Numbered from the stretch's first letter, positions 13,377 through 24,666 are shown. The stretch: 64,000 bases of DNA from Candidatus Eiseniibacteriota bacterium (GCA_023129715.1 JAGMBO010000043.1:1-64000); one strand, 5' to 3'. Numbers and translations are program-made. Notes: generated by a model from the sequence alone, not told the origin.

Positions 13377-13677
13377 CAGTCCTCCCGAGGGTCTCTCATG
13401 CAACGCTCGGCAGCGGCGCGGCGTTCAGCACGACTATCGGCTCGTGGCCTAAGCGAGCGCCGGACACTCTCGGTTGTATGACGGTTGACGGGAACGTTGG
13501 TGCGGACTGTCGTTGGGGTCTCTGCCGCTCTGTCCCGAACTGGGCCACGGAACGACATCACAAGTGCCTCACCACTAGACCCTATGGAACAACCGCCCCC
13601 CGTTTGTAGCATTCGTGCGTTGGCACGTCGCCGCGACGCTATCTGCCAGAGGCACATACAAACGAAGGAGCTCGCGC

Positions 13678-13968
13678 ATGCGTGAGACTATCACATGGGT
13701 AGCGCTGGACGCATCGAAGAAACGCTATGCAGTGGTGGTGCTGGAACCGGAACCCCGGGAGTTCATGGCGATCAATGAAGCGCGTGCCCTGCGGCGTTTG
13801 GGCCGGAAGCTGGTTCGGGAAGCGCCGGGTGAAGCGCGGATTCGCTATGATGCGGGGCCGTGCTGCGCGAGGGCGACCTGCGCGCAGCCGCAGAGCCGGG
13901 GGAGCCACTCGAGGCGGCCTGAGGACTCGATCCACACACGTTCCAGGAATGTGATGAGGAATCGGTAG
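13678..13968 (+). pseudogene. IS110-family transposase, N-terminal remnant
   Basis: After a good site (GAAGGAG) the ATG begins RETITWVALDASKKRYAV, the RuvC-like first strand of IS110 transposases with the catalytic aspartate in VALDAS. The text ALRRLGRKLVREAPGEARIRYDAGPC matches the next conserved block. A full transposase has about 300-400 residues. Here similarity stops at about 13863 and the frame runs into unrelated residues and a stop at 13968. A second frame (13859 onwards) reads VLREGDLRAAAEPGEPLEAA and stops. The element is therefore truncated and inactive. No terminal repeats were identified. Confidence 0.75.
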
Positions 13969-14603: not shown

Positions 14604-15329
14604 TTGGCTATGTCTACCTCCATGAGTCCGAAGTGGCCGACACGCCTCAGGGAAGTCTCGTCTGAACTCGAGAATCCCCAGGATGAATCCTCACAAAGAA
14701 GGGCCAGCGGAGAGGCCTGGGAGATTCTCTTCTCCGCGCTTTCCCTCTATCTGCGATTCCACGCATCGCGACTCGGACGCGTGGCTCCGGAAGACCGCGA
14801 GGATCTGGCCGCGGATAAGTCGTTAGATCTGCTGCGCAGGATCGTTTCAGGGAAGACAGACCTCTCCAATCGCTCTTCGGCGGAGATCGAGAGCTTCCTC
14901 TCGAAAGTGGCCAGGAACGGTCTGTTGGATTTCGTTCGCAAGGCTGGTCGCTGGGTCGCGCTTGGAGAGGAGGACGGCGCCAAGTGGGGTGTCCGCCTGG
15001 CTCAGCAAGAGAGCATGGCGGCTCGGGTGGATTCGCCCGATGGCCTGGTGGAACGAAGGGAGTTCGCTGCGGCACTCCGACGATGCACGGAGCAACTGAG
15101 CCCGCGTTCACGATGGATCTGGTTTCTGCGGGTGTTCTACGGGATGTCAAGCAAGGACATCGCCGTGCATCCCAAGATCAGTTTGAGGGCGAGCCACGTG
15201 GATGTCCTGCTCCAGCGGAGTCGTCAGACAGTCCGGAAGTGCATGAACCGACGGGGCTACGAGTCCCGCGATATGCCACCGGGCGCATTCGTTGAGTTGT
15301 GGAAGAGATTTCGGCCCGAGACGATCTAG
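14604..15329 (+). CDS. ECF-type RNA polymerase sigma factor
   Basis: The 241-residue protein has a region-2-like helix set (ILFSALSLYLRFHASRLGRVAPEDREDLAADK and LDLLRRIV) that would bind core polymerase and the -10 element. A region-4-like helix-turn-helix follows (LSPRSRWIWFLRVFYGMSSKDIA to RSRQTVRKCM). There is no region 1 or 3, so it belongs to the extracytoplasmic-function group. The first open start is TTG at 14604; ATG at 14610 or 14622 are alternatives and no strong ribosome-binding site decides. Nine bases after its stop begins a zinc-finger membrane protein, the usual anti-sigma arrangement. It probably controls its own cluster, including the CHAT protein. Confidence 0.8.
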   Translation: MAMSTSMSPKWPTRLREVSSELENPQDESSQRRASGEAWEILFSALSLYLRFHASRLGRVAPEDREDLAADKSLDLLRRIVSGKTDLSNRSSAEIESFLSKVARNGLLDFVRKAGRWVALGEEDGAKWGVRLAQQESMAARVDSPDGLVERREFAAALRRCTEQLSPRSRWIWFLRVFYGMSSKDIAVHPKISLRASHVDVLLQRSRQTVRKCMNRRGYESRDMPPGAFVELWKRFRPETI

Positions 15330-15338
15330 GGTGACAGC

Positions 15339-16235
15339 ATGAACGATCGACCCCCTGAAGATCCGAGGGGTGGGCAGCAAGGTGATCATCTTGACGAGCA
15401 CGGCTGTCTAGACCTGCTGCACGGTCTCCTTTCTTCGGACGAAGAGGAGAAAATCCTCTCACATCTCGCCGTTTGCCCCGCGTGCGAGAGACTCTTGCGG
15501 GAACGGGCCGCCGATGTGGCCCGCCGGGAGGCCACCAGAGTTCTACGCTTCCTCCCGCAGGGAGAACTGGCGGTGGAGAAACGCGGAACGGCGCTCCGGA
15601 TCCCGGAACACGAGAAGCATCGCTCGCGGGGCATTGCGGGACAGGTGTGGAGGAGTCTCTGGGTGGCGTGCCGCCGGCCGCGTTTCCAGCTCGCCGCCGG
15701 GCTGGCGGTGGTCGCAGCGGTCTTTCTCCTGATCCTGTGGCCCCACGATATTGAGACCCCGGAAGCCCCTGGAGCTTCCGGATCCCTGCTGCTTCACGCA
15801 CTACCTTCGTACTCCTTCCGGCTGCAGCCCAGGGAGGTGCCGGGAACCGGCCCGCGCGACGATCTTATGGCAGGCCTCGCAGCCTATGACAGTGGCGATT
15901 TCGAACGGGCCGTAGAGGTTTTGCGTAGAGCCAGGGAACCTGGACCGGAAGGAGCGCATCAGGAACCTGGACTGGGAAGAGTGCATCAGATGGTCAGGGA
16001 CATCTACCTCGGCAGTGCCTTGGCCCGGATGGGGAAGTACGAAGAGGTCGTTGAAGTCCTAGGGGCGGTCTCGCTCCTGTTGGTGCCCGACCCCTGGGGC
16101 AGCGAAGCTCGCTGGACGCTCTATGTGGCACTGAAGGGGTGTGGCCGCGAGACGGCTGCCGACTCTCTGCTGCGCCTTCTGGTCCGGGAACCTGGGGAGG
16201 TCGGCGAGCGCGCTCGTCGCCTGGAGCAGCGGTAG
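15339..16235 (+). CDS. zinc-finger anti-sigma-like membrane protein with extracytoplasmic TPR-like domain
   Basis: The 298-residue protein carries an HX3CX2C zinc-binding motif (H42, C46, C49 in SHLAVCPACERLL), as in ZAS anti-sigma factors. A single membrane helix lies at about 116-134, followed by a likely periplasmic region with a TPR-like helical pair (MAGLAAYDSGDFERAVEVL and YLGSALARMGKYEEVVEVL). It directly follows the ECF sigma gene. The layout suggests that the N terminus holds the sigma factor while the outer part senses or binds a periplasmic partner, plausibly the TPR-CHAT protein encoded next. That partnership is inference. Confidence 0.75.
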   Translation: MNDRPPEDPRGGQQGDHLDEHGCLDLLHGLLSSDEEEKILSHLAVCPACERLLRERAADVARREATRVLRFLPQGELAVEKRGTALRIPEHEKHRSRGIAGQVWRSLWVACRRPRFQLAAGLAVVAAVFLLILWPHDIETPEAPGASGSLLLHALPSYSFRLQPREVPGTGPRDDLMAGLAAYDSGDFERAVEVLRRAREPGPEGAHQEPGLGRVHQMVRDIYLGSALARMGKYEEVVEVLGAVSLLLVPDPWGSEARWTLYVALKGCGRETAADSLLRLLVREPGEVGERARRLEQR

Positions 16236-16344
16236 GCGCTGCCGCGGGGGCCGGAGTTCCTTGGGGCAACGGCGGGAGATCAACCAAGGGAAGGACCCTC
16301 TGAGCCAACGGCCGAGGGCGGGCAAGACGAGGCCCGGTGTTCCA

Positions 16345-19300
16345 ATGAGACCTACACATGTCAGAGCTGTGCGGGCCCTTCGCGGCGTGCCCTTCTTCCT
16401 GGCGCTACTGCTCCTCGCTGCCCTCTCCCACGCGACCTCCCAAACCGGCGATCCCGCGAGGAGCCCGTGGTCCGACACCCTGCTGAAAATCCAGAGGTTG
16501 CGTGCGGAGGGCAGGTATGACGAGTCCTCGAAAGCCGCGCGGGATTATCACGAGATGCTGCTGCAGAGAGCGCGACCGTCTGCCTTCCACGTGGACGAGG
16601 TCGAAAGACTGATCGCGACGTTGGAGCTCATAGAGGGTCTTCCGGACTGGGCGCAGGAGGAGCTGGCGGAGGCCGATTCGCTCTTCGTGCAGTCGATACC
16701 ACTCTGGCACGCGGGGAAGTACTCGGTTGGAGCAGACATCCACCAGCGCCGGCTCGAGATCCTACGCCGCCATTTTGGGGAAGATCACATGGAGGTGGCC
16801 GGCTGCCTCCATGAGCTGGCGGCTTGCCTCTCGCATATGGGCGACTATGCCCAAGCCGAGCCGCTCTTTCGGCAAACCCTCGAGATGCGCTTGGATCTGT
16901 ACGGGCGCGTCCATCCGGACGTCGCCAGGACACTCGAGTATCTCGGGGAGCTGTATGCCGCCGAGGGGAACGAGAACCGGGCGGACTCGCTCTACAAGGC
17001 CGCGCTGCATGTTTGGGCTGCATACGAGCCGCGGCCTCTCAAGATCGAGGACAGTCGTTCGGACGTCGTTCGACTCTGGGCCAGGATGGCGAAACTCTAC
17101 ATCGACCAGGGTGACTACGCCAAGGCGATGCCCTGGCTGCGCGATGGCCTGGCCGCCTTCCGCGGGCACTGGAGACACGACAACTGGTTGACCGCCATGC
17201 TGCTGAATCACCAGGCGATCGTTCTGTGGAAGCAGGGGGATTATGTGACCGCAGTGGGGCCATTCGAGGAAGCTCTCAGGATGCGCCGCAAGGATCTCGG
17301 TGCAGAGCATCCGCACTCGATTCAGAGCCTGACCGCGCTGGGCACGGTTCTCAGCCAATGCGGCGCACCCGACGTGGCCGAACCCCTGCTTTGGGATGCA
17401 CTGGAGCAAATCAGGAGTATCCGCAAAGAAGGGCACCCAGACATCACAGCCGGGCTGCTCAGTCTGGCCACGTTGATGCGCTCGAAGGCCGACCATGTGG
17501 CGGCCGAGTCGCTTTGCTGCGAAGCCTTGGCGAACTGTCGGTATGTCCCGGATGAGGAGCGTTTGCACGTTGCCCGGTGCCTCCATCAGCTGGCCACCAT
17601 CCAGATGGTCCAGGGGAAGCTGGGGGAAGGCGAGGCCGGTTTCCGTGAAGCCCTGCGAATTCGGCGGCGCTTCCTGAGTACCGGCCACCCCGATGTTGTT
17701 CAGAACCTCCACGACCTTGCTCGTTGCCTCTTGGCGCAGGGTCGACCTGCGGCCGCCGAGCCGTTCCTGTCCGAGGCAGCCGCAGCCTTCGAGACCGCCC
17801 GGTTACGTGTCGGGACCGGTTACGCCCGGGCCACGTTCCAGAACTCACCCTATGCCGCGCTGGCAGTCACACGGCTCATGCTGGGAAAGGCCGTCGAGGC
17901 CTGGCCGGCGGCGGAGCGGGCCCATGGTCGAGCCTTGACGGATCTTCTCGCCGCCGCGAAGCACAGATCTCTGAGCCCGGCCGAGAATGTCATCCAAGAT
18001 TCATTGCAGCGGACGGTCAGCCGACTCGAGAGCCAGCTGGCGGTCCTGCGGGAATCGGCGCGTTCAGACACCGTTGTACAGGTGGCTCTGGATTTCGATG
18101 CGACGCGCGCCCGCCTGCCGGCGGCCGAGGCTGCCTGGTGGGCCTTCCAGAGGGAGATTGCCGCGAAGTACCCGGTCACCGAGGGTCAGGCGTTTTCACT
18201 CCAGCGGGTTCAGAACGTCCTGACGGATCAAACCGCGCTGCTCGGCTGGCTGCATGTGGAGATGGGTCCGGAGGACGTTGCTTCGTGGGGCTACGTCATT
18301 CGCAATGAGGGTCCGGTTTACTGGGCTCCGCTCGGCGCCGCTCCTGACGTCGATACTGCCCCCTTCCCTCTTGGGGAAACACGCGATTTTCGGGAGGCGT
18401 TGGCCATTGCGGCGTCCTGGGAAGAGCGGGTGACGGAGGTGGCCGGCCTCAGGTCGGTTGCGCTGCACGTCTGGGCAGAGTGGCTGGCTCCTCTCACGCG
18501 CTATCTGGACGGCGTCGATGATCTAGTCGTCATTCCCGCGGGTCCAATGCTGGGGGTTCCAATAGAAGCGCTGGTGGACTCAGCCGGCGTCTATCTGGCG
18601 GACCGCTATGCGGTCTCCTATGCTCCCTCGGCCACGGTCCACACTTGGCTTCAGGAAAACGCGCCGGAAGGTGAGACACCAAATGCTCGGACGGCCCTGT
18701 TGCTGGGCGATCCCCCGTTCACGGCGGAGCACCTGGCTGCCATGGAGTGGGAAGAAGAGACGGAGGAAGTGATCCTGGCGTTGGCAGAACGCCTTCCCGA
18801 ACCCGCGGCGCTCCGCAGCGCGCTGGCGGGGAACGCTGCGGCTCTGGCCAGTCTCCCGCGCCTCCCCTGGACGCGAGAGGAGGTCGGGCGGGTAGCCTCC
18901 GTCTTCCCAGAAGCGAGAACGCTCCTGGGTGCCGAAGCGTCTGAGCAGAGCTTCGTGCATCTGGCAGAGTCAGGAGCCCTGCGCGGATTCGGCACGATCC
19001 ATTTGGCGACGCATGCACTGGTCGATGATGAGGTGCCCAAGCACTCAGCCATCATCCTCTCCCGCGCCGATCTGCCGGACCCTCTCGAGGCGGCCATGGC
19101 CGACACGCGGGTCTTCGACGGGCTGCTGACCGCGAAGGAGATTGTGCGCGAATGGGATCTGGATGCGGATCTGGTGACTCTGAGCGGATGTCAGACGGGT
19201 CTGGGAAGGGAAGTGGCGGGGGAGGGTTACATCGGCTTGGCGCACGCCTTCCTGCAGGCAGGGGCGCGAAGCCTTCTGGTCAGTCTCTGGAGGGTGGACG

Positions 19301-19518
19301 ACGAGGCGACCTGCCTCCTGATGGGTCGGTTCTACGAGAATCTCACCGGAGCGTATCAGGACGTGCGCCGGGGCAGACGCGGAGAGCCGATGCCAAAGGC
19401 CGAGGCGCTCCGGGAGGCCAAGGGCTGGCTCCGAGCCTACCGCGACGAAAGGGGCCAGCAGCTCTTCCGTCATCCGGTCTACTGGTCCGGATTCGTGCTG
19501 ATCGGGGATCCGGGATAG
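16345..19518 (+). CDS. exported TPR-CHAT domain protein (predicted caspase-like peptidase)
   Basis: From the ATG at 16345 the protein has 1057 residues. A hydrophobic signal-like segment (VPFFLALLLLAALSHATS) is followed by about ten 42-residue tetratricopeptide repeats (roughly 100-520) and a C-terminal CHAT domain (about 720-1055). The predicted catalytic dyad is H890 (IHLATHALVDDE) and C949 (LSGCQTGLGREV). CHAT proteins are caspase-clan peptidases that cut partner proteins when activated. An exported form next to an ECF sigma/anti-sigma pair points to envelope signalling. An upstream frame opens at 16141, but it overlaps the previous gene and would hide the signal segment. The substrate is unknown; the next two genes are candidate partners. 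Confidence 0.85.
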   Translation: MRPTHVRAVRALRGVPFFLALLLLAALSHATSQTGDPARSPWSDTLLKIQRLRAEGRYDESSKAARDYHEMLLQRARPSAFHVDEVERLIATLELIEGLPDWAQEELAEADSLFVQSIPLWHAGKYSVGADIHQRRLEILRRHFGEDHMEVAGCLHELAACLSHMGDYAQAEPLFRQTLEMRLDLYGRVHPDVARTLEYLGELYAAEGNENRADSLYKAALHVWAAYEPRPLKIEDSRSDVVRLWARMAKLYIDQGDYAKAMPWLRDGLAAFRGHWRHDNWLTAMLLNHQAIVLWKQGDYVTAVGPFEEALRMRRKDLGAEHPHSIQSLTALGTVLSQCGAPDVAEPLLWDALEQIRSIRKEGHPDITAGLLSLATLMRSKADHVAAESLCCEALANCRYVPDEERLHVARCLHQLATIQMVQGKLGEGEAGFREALRIRRRFLSTGHPDVVQNLHDLARCLLAQGRPAAAEPFLSEAAAAFETARLRVGTGYARATFQNSPYAALAVTRLMLGKAVEAWPAAERAHGRALTDLLAAAKHRSLSPAENVIQDSLQRTVSRLESQLAVLRESARSDTVVQVALDFDATRARLPAAEAAWWAFQREIAAKYPVTEGQAFSLQRVQNVLTDQTALLGWLHVEMGPEDVASWGYVIRNEGPVYWAPLGAAPDVDTAPFPLGETRDFREALAIAASWEERVTEVAGLRSVALHVWAEWLAPLTRYLDGVDDLVVIPAGPMLGVPIEALVDSAGVYLADRYAVSYAPSATVHTWLQENAPEGETPNARTALLLGDPPFTAEHLAAMEWEEETEEVILALAERLPEPAALRSALAGNAAALASLPRLPWTREEVGRVASVFPEARTLLGAEASEQSFVHLAESGALRGFGTIHLATHALVDDEVPKHSAIILSRADLPDPLEAAMADTRVFDGLLTAKEIVREWDLDADLVTLSGCQTGLGREVAGEGYIGLAHAFLQAGARSLLVSLWRVDDEATCLLMGRFYENLTGAYQDVRRGRRGEPMPKAEALREAKGWLRAYRDERGQQLFRHPVYWSGFVLIGDPG

Positions 19519-19783
19519 GATTGTCCCGCTTGCGGTTACTGCCCCTCATCCTCGCCTGCGTCCCCAACTTCATCTGAGCACACCCATAGTGCGCTGACGG
19601 CACACCCCTTCGACCTCACCCGGACACACCCATTGTCTACTGACGGCCTGACCCTTGGCATGCCCGTCGAAGAGACGTTGTTAGGTTCACCGCTCAGGGC
19701 CGTTGGTATAGGTGCACGAGAACGGTGACTCCCCAGCGGGTTTCGACAACTCCGCTCCCGCTTGGGCCGGGAAGGAGGACTCT
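19519..19783. other. intergenic region with imperfect direct repeat
   Basis: The word CACACCCATAGTGCGCTGACGG at 19579-19600 recurs as an imperfect copy at 19625-19646, 46 bases on. No gene, terminator hairpin or complete promoter could be identified here. Confidence 0.5.
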
Positions 19784-19987
19784 ATGATGCGACGACTCTC
19801 CGGCGTGTTCGCGCTCGGCAATGTGTGCAACTGCGTCCTAACGGTGACCGACCAGGGCATCCTGGGATTCACCGACGCCACGTTCGATTGGATCATGATC
19901 GTTCGGAGAACTGGTCCGGGGGGCGCCGTCATCACGCCGCCGCAAGATGAGACCCAAGAAATGGGCCTTGGCGGCTGGCGGAGATAA
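19784..19987 (+). CDS. small ORF of unknown function (possibly a remnant)
   Basis: An ATG ATG pair at 19784 is preceded by an excellent GGAAGGAGGA ribosome-binding site and opens a 67-residue frame beginning MMRRLSGVFALGNVCNCVLT. The composition is partly hydrophobic with two close cysteines (CNC). It ends 65 bases before the next exported protein. No family is recognised. The strong translation signal argues for a real start, but the protein could be a truncated leftover of a longer gene, since the second half (GPGGAVITPPQDETQEMG) looks unlike a natural domain end. Confidence 0.35.
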   Translation: MMRRLSGVFALGNVCNCVLTVTDQGILGFTDATFDWIMIVRRTGPGGAVITPPQDETQEMGLGGWRR

Positions 19988-20052
19988 GACGACAGGGTGA
20001 GTGAGGGCCCGTCAGCGGCGATCGCTGGTTGGTGTTGAAAGGAGGATGGAAG

Positions 20053-20751
20053 ATGTTTGACCGAAAGAGAGTCCTACTGGTGGTGTCCGTTGTCATCCTC
20101 TGGACGTTGTCTGTGGCGAGTGTCCCTCTGACGGCAACGGCGCGAGCGGGGGGAGCTGACCCGGCACCAGAAGGGGTAGTGGCGGCAGCCAGAGATGGAT
20201 TGCTGGAGTTTCTGCGGGCCGTGCCCATGAACGAGTTGGAGTATTTCGGGTTTCACGATCAGGACGAACTCTCCCGGGCAACCCTCGGTGAGCCTTTCCG
20301 AGTCTACACCATGCTGCCGAGCGAGATCCTGGCGGTGGCAGGGGGAGAGCCAACCGCAGCCACGATTCATTCCACCACACTGTGGCAGTTTCCGGTCCTG
20401 TGTGATGGAACATCAAGGACACTCCTCACCATCGACGACATGGATGGCATCTGGGCAGCCGTTGATCTCGGCGGTCTCTCACCGGCCATTGAGATGCGAG
20501 AGCTGGCGGACCGGTGGCCTCGATCACAAGGCTACGAGCTGGAATACGTCCGTGTCTTCCAGACGGGGAGCCAGTTCATCTCGGTGACGAAAGATAATCT
20601 CTCCCATCTCGTGTCACTCGAGTCCACGGCTCGCTCACTCGGAATGCTGGCAGAGGGAGAGGCCTTTGAGTATCAGCTGATGGATGTCTCCGCGGTGGTT
20701 GCCATCCTGGCGCCCTTCGTGTGGGCGAATCTGGAAACGACTCAGGAGTAG
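20053..20751 (+). CDS. exported protein of unknown function
   Basis: The 232-residue protein starts at an ATG preceded by GGAGG (20041) and has a clear signal peptide (residues 1-31, VLLVVSVVILWTLSVASVPL, cut near ATARA). The mature part has no family I can name. Its central text (FGFHDQDELSRATLGEPFRVYTM and WQFPVLCDGTSRTLLTIDD) looks like a compact alpha/beta domain with one cysteine. It lies 36 bases upstream of the giant cysteine-peptidase gene in the same direction. A role as inhibitor, chaperone or cofactor for that peptidase is a guess from position only. Confidence 0.7.
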   Translation: MFDRKRVLLVVSVVILWTLSVASVPLTATARAGGADPAPEGVVAAARDGLLEFLRAVPMNELEYFGFHDQDELSRATLGEPFRVYTMLPSEILAVAGGEPTAATIHSTTLWQFPVLCDGTSRTLLTIDDMDGIWAAVDLGGLSPAIEMRELADRWPRSQGYELEYVRVFQTGSQFISVTKDNLSHLVSLESTARSLGMLAEGEAFEYQLMDVSAVVAILAPFVWANLETTQE

Positions 20752-20787
20752 GCCCGGCGCGGGCCAGCATAATGAAGGAGGCCTGAC

Positions 20788-23700
20788 ATGAAATCGTCGA
20801 GTAGAGGGATCATCCTCCTGGCATTGGCCCTGGCAATGTGCGCGTCGCCGTCTGCTGAGGCCAGGATACTGCCGGTACCCCTGGTGTGCCAGGAGCAAAG
20901 CAACTGGTGCTGGGCGGGCTGCACGCAGGCCACAATCGACTACTATGAACAGGTGTCCACCCTCCAGTGCCTCATTGCCGACTATGCGTGTAACCGGCAT
21001 GGGTGGTGCGCTACGTGCAACTGCTGTGAGAACCCGGCCGACCCGACTTGCTGTAACAGAGGAAACTGCATGTACGGGGCCCCGGGCTGCATTCAGGACT
21101 TGCTGTCCAACTGGGGGGTCAGCAGCGTCGGTTCGGTGGGGGCATTGAGCCTGGCCACGATAGGAAGCGAGATCGACACCAACTGCCGGCCCTTCATCAT
21201 CAACTGGGCGTGGACCGGTGGGGGCGGCCACTACATCATCGGGCGGGGGATAGACAACAGTAACAACATCCACTACATGGACCCCTGGCCGCCGGGAGGG
21301 TGTGCGTACCACATTGCCAGCTACTCGTGGATGGTCAGCAGCAGCGCGCACACCTGGGCGTATAGCCTCAAGATGACCACGGCCCACTACTGCTTGGGTC
21401 CAGATCTGGTGGTCTGTGAGCCTCAGGGGGGTACGAATCCGAGCCACCCGCCAACCTACTGGTACGATGTCACGCCGACTACCGGCGGCCGCTGTGACTT
21501 CCACGTCCGGGTCTATGATCCCGATCCGGCCGACTACACGAACTGGAGTCTTCCGGCCCCGACGTGGCAGTTCGCCGTGCACCAGGTGGGGGATGAGTGG
21601 TGGGCCTCCTGGTGGGATCCCGGCTGCACCAACGCGATCTTTGCGCTCTTCCGGTTCCAGTTCGACAACCCGGGGGGCAGCAGCTGGGCAGACTGGCGTA
21701 CAACCATATCCGGAACGAGTATTCCGACGTTTGGCATCGCGGACTGGGCGGACAATCATGCTGATGAGGCCAATGGGTACGGCTACTTGGTGCACGCCCC
21801 GGATGCCCTGGTTGCGACGACGCTCTACGTTCCATCCCAGTACTCCACCATACAGGCCGCGATCAATGCGGCCCAGGATGGAGACACGGTCATGATTGCC
21901 GACGGGACGTACACTGGCCCCGGCAATCGCGGTCTCGATTTCGGCGGCAAGGCCATCACGGTGACATCGTCAAGCCACGACCCGGAGTTGTGCATCATCG
22001 ACTGCCAGGACAGCGGACGGGGATTCTATTTCCACTCTGGCGAGGGATCAGGATCTGTGGTGGAAGGTATGACGATCACAAATGGTGTTGACTCGTACGG
22101 GGGGATATTTTGTACCGTGTCCTCCTCGCCCACGCTCACCAACTGCATCCTCTCGGGGAACTCCGTATACGGGATGTTCTGTGAGCAGAGCTCTTCCCCC
22201 ACAATCACCAACTGCACCTTCTCGGGGAGCACGAACGATGGGATGTTCTGCCGGAGCAGTGCCTCCCCCACGGTTACGAACTGCACTTTCTCGGGGAACG
22301 GTTTCAACGGGATATTCATGCGGAGCTGGGCTAGCCCCACAGTCACCTATTGCACCTTCTTGGAGAACGGGCGCAGCGGGATGTTCTTCAGGGAAGCAGG
22401 TTCCCCAACGGTGAGCAACTGCACCTTCGTGGGCAACTTGACCAACGGGATCTACTGCGACATGTCCGCCTCGCCGACGTTCGAGAATATCATTATCGCC
22501 TTCGGCACCGGTGGAGAAGCCGTGCACTGCGACCTCACGAGCAGCGCGACTCTCATCTGCTGCGATGTCTTCGGCAATGAAGGGGGGGACTGGGTCGGGT
22601 GCATCGTTGATCAGGAGGGCAACAGCGGCAATATCTGCTCGGATCCGGTGTTCTGCAGTTCAGGGAGCGGAGACTTTCACCTACAGGACGACTCGCCCTG
22701 TGCGCCCTTCACCCCGCCGAATGAGGACTGTGATCTCATCGGGGCGTGGCCCGTTGGATGCGGTCCCGGTGGTGTGGCGGGCTATATCCCCAATGTCCCA
22801 GATGCCAATCAGCCGCCAACAAGTACCATAACCCCGGACACGACGAATTTCTGTGCCCCCATGGCAGCTGTCAACATCACCGAATACTGGGATGTGGTCC
22901 AGGGCCATCCCAACGCAGTGGGAGTAAACGCCGCACTCGGCGTGAAAACGGCGGCCGAGTATATCGGCTACTTCATGGGTACCAACGGCTTTGGAAGTCC
23001 GGCCCGAATGAACACCGGGACTCCAGGCACCTACGCGGCAGATGAAATGCCCGGCTTCCAAGAGTTTGTCCGGTGGGATGCGGCCAATCCCTTCCTCACA
23101 CCTCCTCCCACTCTTCCGACGGGGAAGAGTGGTTATACGTGGGCGTTCAGCTATCTAGATGTCTACACAGCGTCAACCGATTCGGCCTTCAATTTCTGCG
23201 CAGACGAGATCGACGCGGGGCGCCCGGTCAAGATCGACTTCCTATACTGGAATCCGGTGCCGGAAGGCATCATCGTCACAGATCCGGAATCCGGGGATCC
23301 CATAGAGTTCTGCGACTGGGGCCCGTGGCAGAGTGGGTCGTCCCATCCGGACCACATTGAGGAGTGGAACGAGTTCGAGGGTGAAGAAGGCATCGGCCAC
23401 GCCGTCACCGGCGTTGGCTACTTCAGAAGCTATGATCCTGACGGAGCAGGACCGCTTCCTCTGGCCGACTATATCGTGGTGCATGACAACTGGTCTGACA
23501 CGCCAGTGAACATCGCCATCGCCTGGGCGAATTGGAACGCCGCGATCGCTGTTGATCCGCGGTCGGTGATTGACATCACGGTGGATCTGACACCCTACTT
23601 CGATTGGGGTGCAATCTCATCCTATCCGGGCCTGATTCCGGCGGGCAACATGGGCATCGCTTCTCCAGCGCACGGGTACCAGGGCTGCTACTTCCCGTCG

Positions 23701-24666
23701 GATTCTCTGGCTCCGTTCACCTTCTATCCCAAAGCATGGCTCACACCGGGGATTCACTTCGCCACCAAGTATGGACCTGCTAACGTGCGGCTATCGGATT
23801 GCCCAGTTCCAGATTCGATGATCACGGTTCCTGATAGACATGGGGACCTGCACTTGCTCCGCGTAGAGATTCCCTCCGCCGACCTGATTGATGAGGCAGC
23901 CGACGAGAACGTGGTCAGGATTTCCATGGGCGAGATGACCATGCCGATCGCCATCAGCGACACGGTCGAGACGATGGTCTTCCTGGCGAGCTGCGATGGC
24001 TGCGCCGAGTCTCCAGATTACCCAAGTCCGTCCCAATCATTGGAGGTCCGACTCAACTACCAGGATGGAAGCGCCGATTCTGTGATCTTTGAGGATATCC
24101 ATCCGGCTGGCCGCTTGGACATTGATGATCCGACCCGTATCTTCCTCTACGGGAACGAGGTCTTCGTCTGTGATCCTGCCTATCTCGACAGTCTGGCCTT
24201 CGACCCATATCATTCGGAGGCCTGGCATTGGTACGCGCTCTATCCGGAGAACACGAAGCTTCTCGGCAGCGTGGCATTCGTGGGGATCCAGACTGGAGAG
24301 CACTCGGAGATCTACATCTCGGCCCTCTCATACAGGAAGGCACGACGTCAGCCGCAAGGTGTCGATTGGGATGCGGACGCGCTGCGGGGTGCAACGCGAC
24401 TCATGCGGAGTGCCCCGAATCCCTTCGGCCGATCAACCGTGATCCGCTTCGAGTTGGCGCGGCCGTCCGAGGTAGATCTGAGTGTCTACGACGTGAGCGG
24501 CCGGCGCTTACGGATCCTGGCGTCGGGCAGCCGAGTGGCCGGTCAGCATGTCCTCACATGGAACGGCCGAGACGACGGGAAGCGTAGCCTCGCCAGCGGA
24601 ATCTACTTCCTGCGGCTCGCCGCAGGGGAAGTTCATCAGACCCGGCGGCTTGTCCTGCTTCGATGA
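20788..24666 (+). CDS. exported protein with two papain/C39-like peptidase domains, beta-helix and FlgD-like C-terminal domain
   Basis: This 1292-residue protein has a signal peptide (1-25). Domain one (about 30-200) resembles AvrRpt2/C39-like peptidases, with C41 (QSNWCWAG), H148 (GGGGHYIIG) and D165 (YMDPWPPG). A region of about 200-350 with no assignment follows. A right-handed beta-helix of about 22-residue coils (SSPTLTNCILSGNSVYGMFC type) spans about 355-630. Domain two (about 665-935) again shows a Cys-His-Asp/Asn order: C689 (NFCAPMAAVN), H871 (GIGHAVTGVGYF) and D900/N901 (VVHDNW). The last 85 residues (APNPFGRSTVIRFEL to IYFLRLAAG) are a FlgD-Ig/type-A sorting-like domain, suggesting cell-surface attachment or secretion. 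A ribosome-binding site (GGAGG) precedes the ATG. Confidence 0.82.
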   Translation: MKSSSRGIILLALALAMCASPSAEARILPVPLVCQEQSNWCWAGCTQATIDYYEQVSTLQCLIADYACNRHGWCATCNCCENPADPTCCNRGNCMYGAPGCIQDLLSNWGVSSVGSVGALSLATIGSEIDTNCRPFIINWAWTGGGGHYIIGRGIDNSNNIHYMDPWPPGGCAYHIASYSWMVSSSAHTWAYSLKMTTAHYCLGPDLVVCEPQGGTNPSHPPTYWYDVTPTTGGRCDFHVRVYDPDPADYTNWSLPAPTWQFAVHQVGDEWWASWWDPGCTNAIFALFRFQFDNPGGSSWADWRTTISGTSIPTFGIADWADNHADEANGYGYLVHAPDALVATTLYVPSQYSTIQAAINAAQDGDTVMIADGTYTGPGNRGLDFGGKAITVTSSSHDPELCIIDCQDSGRGFYFHSGEGSGSVVEGMTITNGVDSYGGIFCTVSSSPTLTNCILSGNSVYGMFCEQSSSPTITNCTFSGSTNDGMFCRSSASPTVTNCTFSGNGFNGIFMRSWASPTVTYCTFLENGRSGMFFREAGSPTVSNCTFVGNLTNGIYCDMSASPTFENIIIAFGTGGEAVHCDLTSSATLICCDVFGNEGGDWVGCIVDQEGNSGNICSDPVFCSSGSGDFHLQDDSPCAPFTPPNEDCDLIGAWPVGCGPGGVAGYIPNVPDANQPPTSTITPDTTNFCAPMAAVNITEYWDVVQGHPNAVGVNAALGVKTAAEYIGYFMGTNGFGSPARMNTGTPGTYAADEMPGFQEFVRWDAANPFLTPPPTLPTGKSGYTWAFSYLDVYTASTDSAFNFCADEIDAGRPVKIDFLYWNPVPEGIIVTDPESGDPIEFCDWGPWQSGSSHPDHIEEWNEFEGEEGIGHAVTGVGYFRSYDPDGAGPLPLADYIVVHDNWSDTPVNIAIAWANWNAAIAVDPRSVIDITVDLTPYFDWGAISSYPGLIPAGNMGIASPAHGYQGCYFPSDSLAPFTFYPKAWLTPGIHFATKYGPANVRLSDCPVPDSMITVPDRHGDLHLLRVEIPSADLIDEAADENVVRISMGEMTMPIAISDTVETMVFLASCDGCAESPDYPSPSQSLEVRLNYQDGSADSVIFEDIHPAGRLDIDDPTRIFLYGNEVFVCDPAYLDSLAFDPYHSEAWHWYALYPENTKLLGSVAFVGIQTGEHSEIYISALSYRKARRQPQGVDWDADALRGATRLMRSAPNPFGRSTVIRFELARPSEVDLSVYDVSGRRLRILASGSRVAGQHVLTWNGRDDGKRSLASGIYFLRLAAGEVHQTRRLVLLR

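Follow-up and report, generated by a model that had tools for sequence, protein, structure and literature searches.

The ECF-like sigma factor, the membrane anti-sigma factor and the exported TPR-CHAT protein encoded by three consecutive genes in the window (the whole stretch of DNA that was analysed, 64,000 nucleotides from Candidatus Eiseniibacteriota bacterium, GCA_023129715.1 JAGMBO010000043.1:1-64000) are judged, on balance, to form one transmembrane signalling unit, in which the exported CHAT protein would free the sigma factor by way of the anti-sigma factor and to which the two genes further downstream would not belong. The original prediction had placed all five genes in an extracytoplasmic proteolytic cascade reporting to the sigma factor. 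The five same-strand open reading frames were confirmed at the positions that it gave (Table 1), and the cascade was kept for the unit of sigma factor, anti-sigma factor and exported CHAT protein, with the products of the genes at 20053 and 20788 excluded. The gaps between the successive genes were 9 bp (sigma/anti-sigma), 109 bp (anti-sigma/CHAT), about 535 bp (CHAT/20053 gene) and 36 bp (20053 gene/C39-type gene), respectively.

Table 1. Positions of the genes, domains and residues in the window, counted from its first nucleotide.
Feature	Position	Strand	Remark
ECF-like sigma factor	14604..15329	+	TTG start; ATG at 14610 possible too
Membrane anti-sigma factor: zinc-finger domain, one TM helix and outside TPR domain	15339..16235	+	
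Zinc-finger anti-sigma motif, anti-sigma residues 17-50	15387..15488	+	invariant H17, C46, C49, E50
Predicted TM helix of the anti-sigma factor, residues 115-133	15681..15737	+	hydropathy 2.97 over 16 residues; helix in AF2 model
Outside linker of the anti-sigma factor with LP-x8-R (L155, P156, R165)	15801..15833	+	conserved loop
Extracytoplasmic TPR domain, anti-sigma residues 174-297	15858..16229	+	AF2 helices, Foldseek
Exported TPR-CHAT (separase-like) protein, 1057 aa	16345..19518	+	
Putative signal peptide, TPR-CHAT residues 1-36	16345..16452	+	n-, h- and c-regions; hydropathy 2.21
CHAT peptidase domain	18472..19509	+	
Codon of the predicted catalytic His890	19012..19014	+	
Codon of the predicted catalytic Cys949	19189..19191	+	
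Exported-looking protein without family	20053..20751	+	first gene of separate two-gene unit
Secreted protein with C39/C70-like peptidase domain, beta helix and FlgD-Ig/T9SS-like tail	20788..24666	+	second gene of separate unit

The sigma factor was assigned to the ECF group by the presence of sigma-70 regions 2 and 4 without region 3. By NCBIfam profile search it scored 49.9 bits with TIGR02937 (sigma70-ECF), above the cut-off of 42.9; the score with Pfam Sigma70_r4_2 was 25.4 bits, slightly under the cut-off of 25.7, and region 2 was weak in Pfam too. Eight loci in seven further genomes carried orthologues with 34-54% identity, and two more were found in named MAGs. Upstream of the sigma gene, a short ORF that resembles the beginning of an IS110-type transposase and may be a remnant was seen by eye at 13615-13968 of the window. 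A near-identical stretch, GCTGGAACAACGGGGAGCGTCCAGGCTCGCACGG, was observed upstream of the sigma gene in three genomes (loci L041, L042 and L043) and had no Rfam match, and the Rfam search of six sources including the window gave no match either.

The anti-sigma factor was matched by Pfam zf-HC2 (5e-4) and TPR_2 (3e-4), both under the curated cut-offs. Its zinc-finger residues H17, C46 and C49 were unchanged in 11 orthologues, and the motif Hx3Cx2C was present as HLAVCPAC, by which the protein was assigned to the zinc-binding anti-sigma factors of class I; it probably binds and inhibits the adjoining sigma factor. The AF2 model (mean pLDDT 78, and above 90 across most of residues 220-298) placed helical hairpins of high confidence past the membrane helix, and the top Foldseek match of the outside part was the TPR domain of YbgF. 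The invariant zinc-finger residues, the predicted TM helix and the TPR fold beyond it bear out the zinc-finger anti-sigma factor with an extracytoplasmic TPR-like part that had been proposed. In the linker between the TM helix and the TPR domain, L155 and R165 were invariant and P156 was kept in 10 of the 11 orthologues, the rest being variable, and this LP-x8-R loop is a candidate cleavage or contact site.

The third protein was matched by Pfam PF12770 (6.5e-60) and TPR_12 (2.4e-40), and the Foldseek matches of its AF2 model (pLDDT 82.2) were human separase (top), DdvA and Csx29. Its N-terminus, MRPTHVRAVRALR-GVPFFLALLLLAAL-SHA, resembles a Sec signal peptide as read from the sequence without a signal-peptide predictor, and the orthologues at L040-L044 have N-termini of lipobox type (LAGC, LSGC, LAAC). 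Export of the protein is predicted with good support from the n-, h- and c-regions together with these lipobox-type orthologue N-termini. Both His890 and Cys949 were unchanged in 15 homologues, and the His-Cys dyad was intact in all of the 56 sigma-linked CHAT proteins checked. By its CHAT domain, its His-Cys dyad and its fold match with separase and Csx29, the protein was classed with the CHAT proteases (clan CD, separase-like), and it would act as a separase-like cysteine protease. An exported CHAT protein with an intact His-Cys pair had been expected and is supported here; the accompanying opinion that most CHAT proteins act inside the cell did not hold in our sample, where an export-like N-terminus was seen in at least 74 of 126 CHAT proteins by a rough count.

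In the proposed mechanism, the zinc-finger domain of the one-pass anti-sigma factor would hold the sigma factor in the cytoplasm, while the TPR domain of the same protein would lie outside. A trigger would be recognised by the exported TPR-CHAT protein through its TPR solenoid; once triggered, the CHAT protein would bind the anti-sigma factor outside the membrane and most likely cleave it there; with this cut the loss of the anti-sigma factor would begin and the sigma factor would be freed. The contact of the CHAT protein with the anti-sigma factor is inferred, and so are the cleavage, its trigger and the regulon. Separase cuts after ExxR. The P1 arginine is read by D2151 in separase, the residue in Craspase being K670 (PMC9729208). 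The residue at the D2151 position of the window CHAT protein, found by hand count on alignments, was Cys990, and a separase-like P1-Arg specificity with R165 of the anti-sigma factor as the cut site was rejected as unsupported. Because this position is not acidic, no cleavage site is claimed and no motif is predicted.

The close sigma orthologues (E below 1e-30) were collected from 59 genomes, and the named-MAG loci L145 and L149 were added. At all 11 loci (the window, L036, L038-L044, L145 and L149, with two loci in G032) the sigma gene was followed by an anti-sigma gene and then by a TPR-CHAT gene, the contig ends of L038 and L039 cutting inside the latter. The original prediction had proposed conserved co-occurrence of the five genes as a check, and what was conserved was this group of three and not the group of five. 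Given the conserved sigma/anti-sigma/TPR-CHAT unit, an extracytoplasmic protease reporting to the sigma factor is therefore a good model. The named relatives were Candidatus Eisenbacteria MAGs, M3-44_Bin_119 (an unassigned MAG), Latescibacterota, Krumholzibacteriota and Fermentibacteria, and, further off, Planctomycetes. At L145:5202-15888 two full sigma/anti-sigma/TPR-CHAT modules stand in tandem, of which the second has an anti-sigma factor with two zinc-finger motifs.

The genome of the window (4.83 Mb, 186 contigs) has eight CHAT genes, four of which are preceded by a same-strand sigma gene at no more than 1 kb (probability by chance about 2e-9). Besides the module in the window, a sigma factor, a zinc-finger-TM-TPR anti-sigma factor and an exported TPR-CHAT protein with a C-terminal TM are encoded on contig C183 (L009), and a sigma factor, a TM anti-sigma factor and an exported TPR-CHAT protein, again with a C-terminal TM, on C127 (L012). 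On C159 (L014:374-6237) a cytoplasmic TPR-CHAT gene lies between two pairs of sigma and soluble zinc-finger genes on opposite strands; on C131 (L015) a sigma-like gene is followed by genes for a soluble zinc-finger protein and a CHAT protein without TPR; on C177 (L011) an exported TPR-CHAT gene is followed by genes for a sigma factor and a membrane Ser/Thr kinase; and the CHAT genes of C123 and C112 stand alone.

For a wider sample, 100 CHAT regions were taken from the 59 genomes, and the window's own genome and the earlier loci were added. A same-strand sigma gene within 3.5 kb upstream was found for 45 of the 114 full TPR-CHAT genes, as compared with about 1.5 expected on the assumption of 25 such sigma genes per 3.8 Mb genome (a density derived from the 22 in the window's genome). 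Many TPR-CHAT genes stand alone, without a sigma gene. These lone genes, and the fact that ECF sigma factors often control their own neighbourhood, would suit a reading in which an ordinary sigma/anti-sigma pair switches on the operon that encodes it, with the exported CHAT protein as its output, an effector made on demand. This reading is considered unlikely, and evidence against it comes from the side of the membrane on which the CHAT protein lies.

The side was assigned by hydropathy, with some partners and some starts (L083, L105, L108, L111 and L200) picked by eye, for modules that included the named loci, a second phylum around G050 and late additions; L138 (CHAT truncated), L094 (weak TM), L055 and L100 (partner not identified), L214 (degenerate CHAT) and L015 (no TPR) were left out. 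The transducer and the CHAT protein agreed in all 75 classified modules, with none mixed: exported CHAT proteins occurred with a TM anti-sigma factor in 33 and with a membrane Ser/Thr kinase and a sigma factor in 12, and cytoplasmic CHAT proteins with a soluble partner in 30. The Fisher value for this matching (1e-21) is not to be taken at face value, and the 75-to-0 match is given without significance because only two switches are independent, the exported/cytoplasmic label switching only twice on the CHAT-domain trees, with the partner switching along each time. One of the two switches is that of L081, which is nested in the window's clade (98/90): its anti-sigma factor has lost the TM helix but retains the TPR part, and its CHAT protein has lost the signal peptide. 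The nature of this switch adds weight to the side matching. Within the exported clade, the partner changed between anti-sigma factor and kinase at least two times, always to another membrane-spanning protein. The kinase-type modules (L090, L088, L076, L097, L106, L096, L117, L084, L141, L087, L063 and L011 of the window's own genome) consist of an ECF sigma factor, a one-pass membrane Ser/Thr kinase (in L090 with a DUF4384 domain beyond the TM) and an exported TPR-CHAT protein, and they suggest that an exported CHAT protein can feed a kinase in place of an anti-sigma factor. A cytoplasmic module of sigma factor, soluble partner and TPR-CHAT protein was also observed at L168:5512-9684 of Methylibium sp. 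NZG, a betaproteobacterium from a group with cultured members.

The CHAT protein thus tracks the side of its transducer, through the L081 switch and the swaps of kinase for anti-sigma factor alike, which argues against its being a mere output of the sigma factor. Further points against that reading are that the anti-sigma part and the CHAT part are joined in one chain in DdvA, that the CHAT protein of Craspase acts upstream of the sigma factor (PMC10028731), and that the operons had no ECF promoter in common: the search upstream of the sigma orthologues yielded no conserved ECF promoter, a result that also counts against the reading of the CHAT protein as an input, and the shared ECF motif that had been looked for upstream of 20053 was likewise missing.

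The signalling unit with the CHAT protein as input would also be compatible with signalling by binding only, in which the CHAT protein and the anti-sigma factor meet outside through their TPR parts and the protease is directed at other targets or at itself. The TPR domains of the two proteins do lie on the same side, and TPRs are binding modules. Binding alone is nevertheless improbable, to about the same degree as the CHAT protein being an output: since the His-Cys dyad was intact in 56 of 56 linked CHAT proteins, catalysis is favoured over pure binding, and Csx29, the sole studied analogue, acts by cleavage (PMC10028731).

A role as an anti-phage sensor, in which envelope damage on infection would trigger the CHAT protein and a defence regulon, is suggested by DdvS of Myxococcus, which controls a CBASS-CRISPR island (PMC12288465), and by Craspase, which is a defence system. 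It is rated as quite improbable for the window, where the five proteins gave no PADLOC match; Cas1 was not found in the genome, which is 96% complete. The PHROGs search returned a generic sigma match only.

The two downstream genes were examined for a link with the signalling unit. The product of the first had no match in Pfam or NCBIfam and no homologues in plasmids; among the 59 genomes it had one homologue, 50% identical, in G007, on a different contig from the sigma module of that genome. A homologue of the N-terminal part of the product of the second gene adjoins it there, homologues of both genes being found in that genome only, and the neighbours of the pair are unrelated genes. In the large surface protein, for which two Cys-His-Asp triads had been predicted, the first domain (near residues 28-168) matched C39_2 and C70 with 26.4 and 22.4 bits (cut-offs 24 and 19, respectively); the second triad (about residues 700-910) was seen as a motif, and sequence searches of its region against Pfam and PDB gave no match. 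In the gap between the units, at 19590-19660 of the window, a CACACCCAT(A/T)GT...CTGACGGC element was observed twice. The pair was absent beside every other sigma/CHAT module of the fetched loci wherever the flanks were readable, and the five genes are divided into two units because the pair is unlinked to the sigma module in G007 and absent beside other modules. A single cascade of all five genes ending in the C39-type surface protein, which adjacency on the same strand in one genome would favour, is scarcely credible and was largely refuted by these gene neighbourhoods together with the 535 bp gap.

Among the known systems nearest to the three-gene unit is DdvS-DdvA of Myxococcus xanthus, in which DdvS turns active on loss or inactivation of DdvA, the trigger being not known in 2015 (PMC4374960). 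As proposed for the window, an ECF sigma factor is kept inactive through a membrane-bound anti-sigma factor associated with a TPR-CHAT part, which we read as lying outside the membrane in DdvA; in contrast to the two genes of the window, DdvA (PDB 8rot, 8rw5) is a single fused chain of anti-sigma part, membrane helix and TPR-CHAT part. Membership of the DdvA type was rejected on this account, and no DdvA-like zinc-finger fusions were found among the 126 TPR-CHAT proteins scanned. Residues 832-962 of DdvA align with the CHAT domain (profile A2) with the catalytic His and Cys positions kept, and the sequence similarity to the window CHAT protein is remote (10^-10 to 10^-12 with the family profiles). 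DdvA scored 49.9 bits with the profile of the exported class and 44.3 bits with that of the soluble/cytoplasmic class; on the tree it stood on a long branch on the cytoplasmic side, a place that is unsure, as 39% of the columns were covered.

Craspase (type III-E) likewise combines a TPR-CHAT protease, a sigma inhibitor and an ECF-like sigma factor (CASP-sigma), Csx29 cleaving the inhibitor Csx30 (PMC10028731); unlike the window's unit it is cytoplasmic and triggered by RNA through Cas7-11. Membership was rejected, with neither a Cas1 in the genome nor a PADLOC match of the five proteins. The Craspase proteins scored 65, 52 and 45 bits with the profile of the cytoplasmic sigma-linked CHAT proteins, whereas the exported-class profile gave 21 bits for Csx29 and missed the other two, a comparison that is biased by the tighter cytoplasmic alignment (mean identity 48% vs 39% for the exported one). 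On the tree Craspase also stood on the cytoplasmic side (branch 97/95), and its TPR-CHAT protein appears to match the cytoplasmic sigma-linked class best.

CHAT proteins are also encoded near ECF54 sigma factors, for which proteolytic control was proposed and which were described without an anti-sigma factor (PMC8999054); membership of ECF54 was rejected, as a zinc-finger anti-sigma gene lies between the sigma gene and the CHAT gene in the window. By analogy with RseA-DegS and RsiW-type proteolysis, an ECF sigma factor would be released when a protease outside the membrane acts on its one-pass anti-sigma factor (PMC10028731); DegS is a PDZ serine protease, whereas the window's candidate is a cysteine protease of separase type whose gene belongs to the operon itself. 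Eukaryotic separase shares the TPR-like solenoid and the caspase-fold domain with a His-Cys dyad, and differs from the window CHAT protein, which is bacterial and predicted to be exported, in the acidic S1 position (D2151); a securin gene is also missing in the window.

It is proposed tentatively, with less than even confidence, that TPR-CHAT proteases are a general input of ECF sigma factors in several phyla, forming a module in which the protease and the regulator of the sigma factor (anti-sigma factor or kinase) always share one side of the membrane, with the DdvA fusion and the sigma-signalling arm of Craspase as offshoots of this module, the latter from the cytoplasmic branch. CHAT proteases are common in bacteria, and few have a known substrate. 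The modules would provide a large testable class of CHAT proteins for which a candidate substrate can be named, the anti-sigma factor encoded next to them, and whose rule of topology (same side) can be broken by experiment. If true, the proposal would account for one genome holding several paralogous switches, and would join the protease-sigma arm of Craspase and the DdvA fusion of Myxococcus into one wider family. The model had been called undescribed, a view that does not survive the known DdvA (PDB 8rot/8rw5), Craspase (PMC10028731) and CHAT neighbours of ECF54 (PMC8999054). What the window adds to two known parallels is a split-gene form with many paralogues, in which the protease and the sigma regulator are matched in membrane side.
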